Under the pieces are notes generated by a model that did not search any database, was not told the origin of the DNA, and was given only the letters and a program-made list of their open reading frames with translations. Positions 48,348 through 51,326 of a stretch of DNA of 58,947 bases are shown here, piece after piece. The position numbers and the translations under genes were made by a program. Location: NCBI GenBank assembly GCA_016218585.1, contig JACRDK010000010.1:132974-191920 (forward strand), written 5' to 3'. Numbering within the stretch: the stretch's first letter is position 1; every line of letters begins with the position of its first letter. Origin of the DNA: Candidatus Doudnabacteria bacterium (lineage in GTDB: Bacteria > Patescibacteriota > Doudnabacteria > UBA920).

Positions 48348-48851
48348 CTAGTAACAGACTTTTTTTGCCCTGATGGCCTTTATTGTCTGTTTGTGCAGCG
48401 CGTCTTCTAGAATTGTTATGTATCCTTTGCCGGGCAGAATGTCGGAAGTCATCGTTCCATTGCTGCTGCAGCTAGCCATAAGCCACCCTTCTTCGTTACC
48501 GGGATTTTTCTTATGGTAGATAGTAACAATGATCCCGTCGATATCCAGCTGCCAAACATCCCCGTGAGTGTTGCTCAGGATCTCGCACGGTTTCATCCCC
48601 GAGTATTCCATAGCCTTTCTGTATGCCAGCGAGTGGCTCAGGAACTTTACCCAAAGTTCCGTGTCTTTGCCATCTAAGCCCTTCTGGCGTTGAAGTCTTG
48701 GCTTTGAAGCCTCGTCCTCATTTAGAGGGGTAGTTTGCTCTTTGGCGTGCTCGGCTCTCGGCTTAGCTCTTCGCGATTCTACAATTCTAGCGAGAAGCAC
48801 GAGCATTAAAATAAGCAATAATGCCGCTATTGGCAATGCCACATAACTCAC
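48348..48851 (-). CDS. TM-anchored orphan protein (167 aa)
   Basis: N-terminal TM; SD GGGAGGAG upstream; dyad promoter upstream. Confidence 0.6.
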   Translation of the reverse strand: MSYVALPIAALLLILMLVLLARIVESRRAKPRAEHAKEQTTPLNEDEASKPRLQRQKGLDGKDTELWVKFLSHSLAYRKAMEYSGMKPCEILSNTHGDVWQLDIDGIIVTIYHKKNPGNEEGWLMASCSSNGTMTSDILPGKGYITILEDALHKQTIKAIRAKKVCY

Positions 48852-48883: not shown

Positions 48884-48917
48884 TAACAAAATACCACATT
48901 TAGTGGTATTTTGTCAA
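48884..48917 (-). promoter_or_regulatory. Promoter with embedded 12-bp inverted repeat
   Basis: Minus strand TTGACA...TATTTT with ACAAAATACCAC-TAAAT-GTGGTATTTTGT. Confidence 0.55.
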
Positions 48918-48951: not shown

Positions 48952-48985
48952 ATTATATTCTGGTATTCTGCAGAATGTCAGAATG
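48952..48985. repeat. 34-bp palindromic repeat, copy 1
   Basis: ATTATATTCTGGTATTCTGCAGAATGTCAGAATG. Confidence 0.95.
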
Positions 48986-49247
48986 ATTTAGTGAAGGTAA
49001 TGAACTTTTTTCCGTAGGGAGAAAGTGAATGCAGTACTTCCCTGTCGCGATACTTTTTGTTTAGAAGCCCGGCTTGCACCAGTTTTCTTGTGTGCTCCGA
49101 AATTGTTTTAATATTGCATTTCAGTTGAGTTGAAATTTGATTCAGCGAAATACCGGAAGCTTTTTCCACCAAATACAAAATCTCAATGCGCCGATGGTTA
49201 GCGGCTCCTTTAAAATACCTCTCTAATTGTTTGCAAGTCTTTTGCAC
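48978..49247 (-). CDS. ArsR-like winged-helix regulator (89 aa)
   Basis: NHRRIEILYLVEKASGISLNQISTQLKCNIKTISEHTRKLVQAGLLNKKYRDREVLHSLS. Confidence 0.85.
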   Translation of the reverse strand: MQKTCKQLERYFKGAANHRRIEILYLVEKASGISLNQISTQLKCNIKTISEHTRKLVQAGLLNKKYRDREVLHSLSPYGKKFITFTKSF

Positions 49248-49259
49248 AAAATTCCCAAT

Positions 49260-49293
49260 ATTATATTCTGGTATTCTGCAGAATGTGAGAATG
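49260..49293. repeat. 34-bp palindromic repeat, copy 2 (33/34 identical to copy 1)
   Basis: ATTATATTCTGGTATTCTGCAGAATGTGAGAATG. Confidence 0.95.
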
Positions 49294-49302
49294 TTTTTAG
49301 GG

Positions 49303-50559
49303 TTAGAGTTTCATTTCGTCAAAGGCCCAGGAAATTATTTCCAACATTTGGGGATAGTTGGCCGCTCCCCTGTCCTGAGTGTAAAAATACAAAGTGTTGC
49401 CTACCAGTTCAATGTTTAATTCAAAAGGCAGATTGTAAATTTTCTCCATAAAGTTTGGGGTAAGAAGTTCCAGGGAATTTATTTGGTCGCGCTCGTCCGC
49501 CCACAGGGAAAATTTGTTGTTAAAGTCCGCGCTTTCCAAAGACATCTTTTTTAAACCCCACACCGGCAGCTGCAAAAACTTTTTCTTTTTTATAAGGATG
49601 TCGTAATAGCTTTTGGGCAATATGGCCTGGGCAATAACATAATTTTCCGGAGAGCGGCTTTCGGTGTTGGGAATATATGTGTAGAACTCCACAATTTTGT
49701 CCCTATAGTAGCCAATAACATGGTTGTTAATGTCGCTGCGGCCAAAGTTGGTTTGTTTAAACAGCACGCCTTTGTTGGGCATCATTAGCCAGCCAAAATC
49801 GGCATCGTAATAAAAATTATTTTGTTGCGCAAAGTCTGCTATGTCTTTTTCATACATAGCCGCATCTTCCGTTTCCTGGGTAATAAAATCCAAGACCCAT
49901 TTTTTATCCAGACGTTGAACCAAATGCCAATATTCGGTAAACCTTGAGCTGTCGCTAAACAGGGGCTTGTTAATTTCTGTATCCATTAGGGAATCAAAAG
50001 CCGAAGCGGTAATTTGCAATGTAAGTTTTTGCGTGGTCTCCCCGGGTTGTTCCTCCCCTATTACTAATATCTCGTGTACGGAAACATTGTTCATCGGGTT
50101 GGCACGTTTCTCATTTTGCAGAACAGACAGTTCCAAAACCATTCGCTTATAATACTCCGGAGTTACTAACTGCTCCATTGTTTTTAAATCAAACTCGCCC
50201 CAGGCTTTCTGGAAACTTTTAAAAAGATTTTCTACTTCGGCGTATAAGGCGTTCCTGTCCAGATTATTTTTTTTGATGATATTTTCGTCATTCATTTTGG
50301 CCAAAGCCAAAAGCCGCTGCTTATTTTTTACAGCAATAATAATTCCAACAATTGGAATAATTAAAAATAACAGCATCCAGGGGCTAAAACTGCCGCCCCC
50401 GCCGGATGAGTGGGAAGAATAAGAACCTCCGCTAAAGCCGCCCCCTCCTCCGCCTCCCCCGCCGCCAGAACCACCCCCACCCCCGCGAGCTAAAGCATAT
50501 TGGGCAAAAGTAAAAAGACTAATAAGTGATAAGGCAAAAACCCATTTTATTTTTTTCAT
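49303..50559 (-). CDS. Tim44-like domain protein with signal peptide and Gly/Ser-rich linker
   Basis: RGGGGGSGGGGGGGGGGFSGGSYSSHSSGGGG, TM, then Tim44-like C-terminal region. Confidence 0.7.
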   Translation of the reverse strand: MKKIKWVFALSLISLFTFAQYALARGGGGGSGGGGGGGGGGFSGGSYSSHSSGGGGSFSPWMLLFLIIPIVGIIIAVKNKQRLLALAKMNDENIIKKNNLDRNALYAEVENLFKSFQKAWGEFDLKTMEQLVTPEYYKRMVLELSVLQNEKRANPMNNVSVHEILVIGEEQPGETTQKLTLQITASAFDSLMDTEINKPLFSDSSRFTEYWHLVQRLDKKWVLDFITQETEDAAMYEKDIADFAQQNNFYYDADFGWLMMPNKGVLFKQTNFGRSDINNHVIGYYRDKIVEFYTYIPNTESRSPENYVIAQAILPKSYYDILIKKKKFLQLPVWGLKKMSLESADFNNKFSLWADERDQINSLELLTPNFMEKIYNLPFELNIELVGNTLYFYTQDRGAANYPQMLEIISWAFDEMKL

Positions 50560-50636
50560 ACAGCTAATTAGTTTATATTTGAAGTATATCAAAAAACACC
50601 CTAAGAATATAAATATCAAAATTAAATTTTTGAATT

Positions 50637-51326
50637 TTATTCCTTATCTAAAAATTTAATAACTTTTTCGGTAATTTTGGAATTTATTTCAACAATTTTT
50701 AAAAAACATTTATCTGCATTACCAATTTCACTTTTTATTTTGTTGTGCCATTCCGTCGATGCTTTTTTAATTCCAACAACACTTGGATTAGCTTTTGGTA
50801 ATAGGTGTGGACTGTAGTCCTCGTGTCCATAGTATACTTTATGAGAAATTAATTTTCGCTTTGCTAAAAATGTTGAAAGCGGCGGGCTACCAAATTTTTT
50901 TAGTTCAGTTGATAGGTGGTGCTCTTTTATAATTCTATTTTTTTGTAATCTGTTTTGTAAATCAGTATCGCCGTTATCGTAACCTAACCTCAAGGAACAA
51001 TTTAAAAAAACACAAATTTTATCTCTGTACGCATGAACTCTGAATAAGAAATTTTCAAGATGATAGTGTACTTCTTCTAGGGCAGATAGTTCGCTCTCAA
51101 AATTTGCTATTAGGTGGCTTTTCTTTTTTGAACCTATCGAATCGACAAACCATTGGCCAAGAGCTGCTGCTTTTTGAATTTTTATGTTTATCTGTCTTAA
51201 ATCCATTGTTAAATGTTGGATTTCGTGACGAAAAACCCTCGCTTCCTTGTTAAGCTTTAAATGTTTAAAACCGAGTATGTGTGGCATTGTATTTGCCTCT
51301 TTCTTTTTTGATTTTACTTTTTTCAT
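50637..51326 (-). CDS. Hypothetical alpha-helical protein (HEPN-like possible)
   Basis: ORF; VHAYRDKICVFLN segment. Confidence 0.5.
   Translation of the reverse strand: MKKVKSKKKEANTMPHILGFKHLKLNKEARVFRHEIQHLTMDLRQINIKIQKAAALGQWFVDSIGSKKKSHLIANFESELSALEEVHYHLENFLFRVHAYRDKICVFLNCSLRLGYDNGDTDLQNRLQKNRIIKEHHLSTELKKFGSPPLSTFLAKRKLISHKVYYGHEDYSPHLLPKANPSVVGIKKASTEWHNKIKSEIGNADKCFLKIVEINSKITEKVIKFLDKE

Follow-up and report, generated by a model that had tools for sequence, protein, structure and literature searches.

How Patescibacteria control transcription has hardly been explored, and a locus of Candidatus Doudnabacteria bacterium raises the question of what two nearly identical repeats are for when they stand on either side of a small regulator gene. 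The locus lies in the window, i.e. the whole stretch of 58,947 nucleotides that was analysed.

Repeats and regulator at the locus

The two 34-bp direct repeats that the initial annotation had placed around the regulator gene were borne out by recomputation of coordinates and match: the copies are identical at 33/34 positions, with a spacing of 308 bp and a C/G as the sole difference (coordinates are collected in Table 1). They had also been described as palindromes, which holds for a 28-bp core made of four half-sites of the ATTC type; because its core-pair counts are 12/14 (site 2) and 11/14 (site 1), the palindromes are near-perfect, not perfect. Read along the minus strand, the locus runs from the 438-aa gene through site 1, the regulator and site 2 (over the TGA) to the 167-aa gene, in agreement with the proposed placement of one copy ahead of the regulator and the other between the regulator and the 167-aa gene. 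The end of site 1 lies 17 bp ahead of the regulator GTG, and a TATAAT abuts this site in the window. The regulator stop codon lies inside site 2, where it is read A TTC TGA. It is this TGA that holds the C/G mismatch, as had been noticed, and the TCA version would add SHSAEYQNIIF to the protein before the next stop.

Table 1. Features of the locus (window positions)
Feature	Coordinates	Strand	Basis or remark
167-aa TM protein gene, downstream of regulator	48348..48851	minus	sequence reading
Different perfect 10-5-10 inverted repeat AAAATACCACnnnnnGTGGTATTTT	48888..48912	none	spacer/-10 of 167-aa promoter
34-bp direct repeat, copy 1	48952..48985	none	repeat comparison
Site 2, predicted 3′ palindromic operator, 28-bp core	48957..48984	minus	ATTCTGACATTCTGCAGAATACCAGAAT in regulator sense
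89-aa ArsR/HTH_5 winged-helix regulator, GTG start	48978..49247	minus	Pfam HTH_5, model, Foldseek
34-bp direct repeat, copy 2	49260..49293	none	33/34 identity to copy 1
Site 1, predicted upstream palindromic operator, 28-bp core	49265..49292	minus	ATTCTCACATTCTGCAGAATACCAGAAT in regulator sense
438-aa Tim44-like/DUF3137 membrane protein gene, ends just upstream of site 1	49303..50619	minus	

By domain and fold, the regulator is a member of the ArsR superfamily: it scores above the gathering cutoff of Pfam HTH_5 (3e-7; 30.7 bits versus a cutoff of 22), and the best Foldseek matches of its AlphaFold model (pLDDT 95.2) are CadC, HlyU and CzrA (CadC 3f72, E 4e-6, TM 0.86). By the scores tested it is outside the metalloregulator and SdpR subfamilies, staying below the cutoffs of NCBIfam HTH_metalloreg NF033788 (36.8 versus 55 bits) and SdpR NF033789 (24.3 versus 100 bits). 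A metal-ligand cysteine motif is missing, as no Cys is conserved among the regulator homologues (C44 varies); this check covered Cys motifs. Just upstream of the 438-aa gene, a HEPN-domain protein (PF18730, 3.5e-6; window positions 50637-51326) is possibly a defence or toxin–antitoxin remnant.

Conservation of the bracket and the stop codon within site 2

Homologues were collected from genome collections, mostly from Patescibacteria with some Verrucomicrobia, and 85 regulator loci were analysed. Site 1 is present in 66 of them, site 2 in 62 and both in 56; the two-palindrome bracket is thus a trait of the family and not a peculiarity of the Doudnabacteria genome. Furthermore, the pattern ATTCNNNNATTCTNNAGAATNNNNGAAT occurs in 34/34 regulator-holding genomes searched (1–15 matches each, regulator-flanking ones included), and its backwards-read control has zero matches in the same 34 genomes, so that the repeat pattern goes beyond chance. 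Chance, or a recent local duplication devoid of function, might explain a 33/34 identity inside one locus, but this negligible possibility is ruled out by the zero control and by the conservation in 56/85 homologues, whose sequences differ between genomes.

The distance of site 1 to the gene varies between homologues. The start of site 2 is fixed relative to the gene end: one subfamily, with 24 loci, has it at -6 or -15, the other, with 21 loci, has it at -29. The rule spans both Patescibacteria and Verrucomicrobia and does not depend on the next gene. When site 2 starts at -6, all centres (12/12) are free of in-frame stops and the outer half-site gives TGA or TAA; when it starts at -15, all centres (again 12/12) read TTGA or TTAA, which give the stop. 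The C/G mismatch between the window copies is explained by this requirement, the regulator's stop codon having to come from site 2. Members of the -29 subfamily have coding sequence at site 2 (..ILKFLRTLE), with a synonymous codon identity of 73% in the last nine codons versus 36% elsewhere, which argues that the DNA itself is constrained. A 3′ operator doubling as stop codon or as C-terminal codons would be an unusual dual-use sequence, and a deeply conserved one.

Residue 47 of the recognition helix and the palindrome core

Palindromes beside each regulator gene were searched in a motif-free manner, accepting any 28-bp palindrome with at least 12/14 pairs. In the regulator model, the recognition helix is H46-58, with residue 47 in its first turn. 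Loci with Lys or Arg at this residue carry C.G at the inner half-site and TTC..GAA cores (57/57), versus T.A and TTT..AAA-type cores at loci with any other residue 47 (6/6); the association has a Fisher value of 1.5e-8, which overstates independence because the loci are related. The tree needs at least three independent changes of residue 47, and palindrome data come from three changed lineages. The two sites of a locus agree in core type at 23/23 loci. Loci L109 and L112, whose FRT helices contain Arg47, have GC-rich centres (ATTCCGCGGAAT) and are in line with the residue-47 rule. This covariation, in which both copies switch together, makes the 28-bp repeats very probably the operators of the regulator encoded between them. 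In the verrucomicrobial loci L117-L121, with non-Lys47 helices, partly palindromic ATGGACTTATTGCCATTTGTCCAT-type repeats occur at similar places and apparently represent another operator specificity.

Promoter signals and the function of site 2

A TATAAT-like hexamer is found 4-24 bp past site 1 in 61% of loci versus 29±5.5% after shuffling, and on the other, upstream side of site 1 no -10 signal is seen at the same homologue loci. A -10 element just downstream of site 1 puts this site over the -35/spacer region, as in an autorepressor; the putative operator thus appears to overlap the regulator's own promoter, fitting autorepression.

The initial annotation had seen in the two copies a two-operator autoregulatory circuit, with the second copy serving the 167-aa gene. 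Coevolution, position, co-occurrence and the -10 at site 1 all speak for operators of the regulator's own, and this part of the proposal is retained; the part concerning the 167-aa gene is not supported. Site 2 does precede the 167-aa start by 106 bp. However, it is followed by different genes in different genomes (peptidyl-tRNA hydrolase, tRNA synthetase, diacylglycerol kinase and others), yet keeps its place at the regulator's 3′ end, and -10 elements are not enriched after it at homologue loci (34% versus 33%). In addition, the 167-aa gene has, by sequence reading, a promoter of its own (TTGACA at 48912-48917, N18, TATTTT at 48888-48893) bearing the AAAATACCACnnnnnGTGGTATTTT inverted repeat, which is single-copy in the genome and the probable operator of another regulator. 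The encoded protein has no family above cutoff in profile searches. It is therefore unlikely that site 2 is the operator of this gene and that the pair forms a two-gene circuit; the 167-aa gene is probably under no direct control from site 2. Given a site 2 devoid of promoter signal, the varying next genes and the separate 167-aa promoter, site 2 is best understood as serving the regulator's own control, as its second operator.

A role of site 2 at the RNA level, as hairpin, transcript terminator or 3′ stabiliser, is more improbable still. Perfect palindromes do fold as hairpins, many of the extra sites found elsewhere in the genomes lie right behind stop codons, and TTTTTT follows site 2 in the window; but T runs after site 2 are rare among homologues (5/62), the non-palindromic pairs have no clear wobble preference (26 GU, 20 AC and 56 other on the sense strand), and the core covaries with the DNA-reading helix of the protein.

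Copies elsewhere in genomes

Among 49 genomes of the class, the pattern is present in 5/5 genomes with the regulator versus 5/44 without it. Five genomes lacking a detected regulator (L244-L248) hold one orphan palindrome each. Extra sites differ from their own genome's regulator sites by 2.2 mismatches versus 4.4 from those of other genomes, and 0/5000 permutations were as low.

In the Doudnabacteria genome a third copy (C29:125710-125737, one core base changed) occupies the space separating gnd from a 223-aa gene. The latter occurs in nearly all genomes of the family and is preceded by gnd in most relatives examined, and no palindrome was found in any of the relatives' upstream stretches examined. 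The asymmetric ACCAGAAT arm of the third copy recurs in sites 1 and 2 (1-3 mismatches in direct orientation, 5-6 when flipped), so this site probably arose by copying; the comparison indicates a gain just before a native 223-aa gene.

There are 100 extra sites, 21 of them within called ORFs, and the 11 of these located in plausible real genes were examined. All but one (10/11) are in one open frame, encoding [HY]S[NHR]IL[EQK]N[VIM][GR][MI], in genes including IscS, TsaD, TGT and PheT. Aligned with solved homologues, the copies in IscS, TGT and KsgA map to variable regions, and the TsaD copy falls in an unaligned stretch. In two relatives (62-64% identity at the protein level) the IscS palindrome is kept, and it contains a compensatory change. 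Together, the gain of the third copy and the in-frame copies in housekeeping genes suggest that operators also disperse.

Other loci bear on how copies come and go. A solo palindrome in L243 has a left flank like that of site 1 (91% over 91 bp) and a right flank like that of site 2 (79% over 71 bp), and looks like what is expected for loss of the regulator by recombination between palindromes. In the same Moraniibacteriota stretch (L243 5198-11452), a gene of ~530 bp is duplicated at 91% identity and a ~40-bp promoter-like repeat is used at least five times. No clean empty site was found within the genus, both neighbour genes being mostly missing in the seven other genomes, all of which lack the regulator. 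On a Verrucomicrobia contig, three palindromes (L083 2734, 3470 and 4402) share ~20/25 bases of their left flanks; the unit copied on this contig was therefore longer than the palindrome. A phage or plasmid origin was rejected, as viral contigs and plasmids gave no match (one peptide pattern served for the viral profile scan).

These observations return to a mobile REP at unrelated loci, the alternative that the initial annotation had itself named. Dispersal is real to the extent that genomes contain 1-15 matches, some of them intragenic, with one recent gain. It is possible, though not the favoured interpretation, that the palindromes are mainly a dispersed mobile or selfish element (REP- or RPE-like) with the regulator as passenger or domesticated carrier; the per-genome counts, the third site with its shared arm, the single reading frame of the intragenic copies, the solo site resembling a deletion between repeats and the orphan sites in regulator-negative genomes are all compatible with it. 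Against it stand the covariation of the core with the recognition helix, the agreement of extra sites with the local regulator, the maintenance of the IscS palindrome with its compensatory change and the lack of viral or plasmid matches. Because extra copies match the operator of the local regulator, operator role and dispersal can both hold. It is also possible that the regulator bracketed by its own operators moves horizontally, with operator copies entering gene ends and, in frame, housekeeping genes; if true, regulons would be built by copying binding sites and not by point mutation.

As to function, the 72 putative target proteins include, as raw counts, two AlkD, two Exo_endo_phos, HhH-GPD, MPG, LigD_N and a PIF1 helicase. 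Six sites lie by DNA-repair genes (L048 3127, L050 3361, L073 397, L196 600, L208 1589 and L054 3696), their neighbours being HhH-GPD, AlkD twice, MPG glycosylase, an ExoIII-like protein and LigD phosphoesterase. A DNA-repair or stress regulon is possible and kept as a lead, most of the 72 targets being unrelated to repair.

Proposed mechanism and significance

We consider it likely that the ArsR-type homodimer has its operators in the palindromes and would act in autorepression via site 1, with site 2 as second operator and a few further targets. Bound to site 1, and thereby covering -35 and spacer of the regulator promoter, the homodimer would repress its own gene. Site 2, at the 3′ end of the gene, would be a second operator retained for the regulator's own control; with repressor on both ends, ~300-400 bp apart, looping or a road-block of the gene would be its likeliest role, looping being inferred since there is no promoter at site 2. 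The few further copies per genome would place other genes under the same regulator, as with the 223-aa gene after gnd, which would be regulated via the third copy in the Doudnabacteria genome. Binding and repression are, like these roles, predicted from sequence. Some findings count against the operator model: extra sites have no -10 enrichment (22% versus 27%), ~11 of them are intragenic, a location that does not readily suggest classical repression, and orphan sites occur in the five genomes with no detected regulator.

The bracketed arrangement is kept in dozens of Patescibacteria and in some Verrucomicrobia, with further copies genome-wide. Here, a regulator family, its predicted operator, a specificity rule linking residue to base, and candidate regulons across many genomes follow from sequence alone, and the dispersed copies make the origin of new operators amenable to study.

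Comparison with known systems

A literature search, although incomplete, found no description of a palindrome-bracketed regulator system in Patescibacteria. Two-operator repressors are known from lac O2 and gal OI, with one operator at the promoter and one intragenic or at the far end. By analogy, the present system combines a predicted promoter operator with a predicted distant one, making looping plausible; unlike in lac and gal, the protein is of a different family and the second operator would lie in the regulator's own gene, giving its stop or C-terminal codons. REP/BIME elements with RAYT are short, mostly intergenic palindromes whose copies bracket a transposase gene. Short, mostly intergenic palindromes and a bracketed gene are also found here, but the gene between the copies codes for an ArsR regulator instead of a transposase, and copies per genome are few.

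ArsR/SmtB-family autorepressors are exemplified by Rv2034 of Mycobacterium tuberculosis (PMC3338718). With CadC, CzrA, HlyU and Rv2034 the regulator shares a small winged helix and a palindromic operator, predicted here, at its own promoter. It differs in having no conserved metal-binding Cys, in missing the NCBIfam ArsR/SmtB and SdpR cutoffs, and in a second, equally conserved 3′ operator accompanied by dispersed operator copies. Lastly, Rickettsia palindromic elements are ~150 bp long and genome-dispersed, some being in frame in conserved genes (PMC10969869). Dispersed palindromes with in-frame copies inside unrelated genes are common to both systems; those described here are shorter (28-34 bp) and are tied to, and covary with, a DNA-binding regulator.
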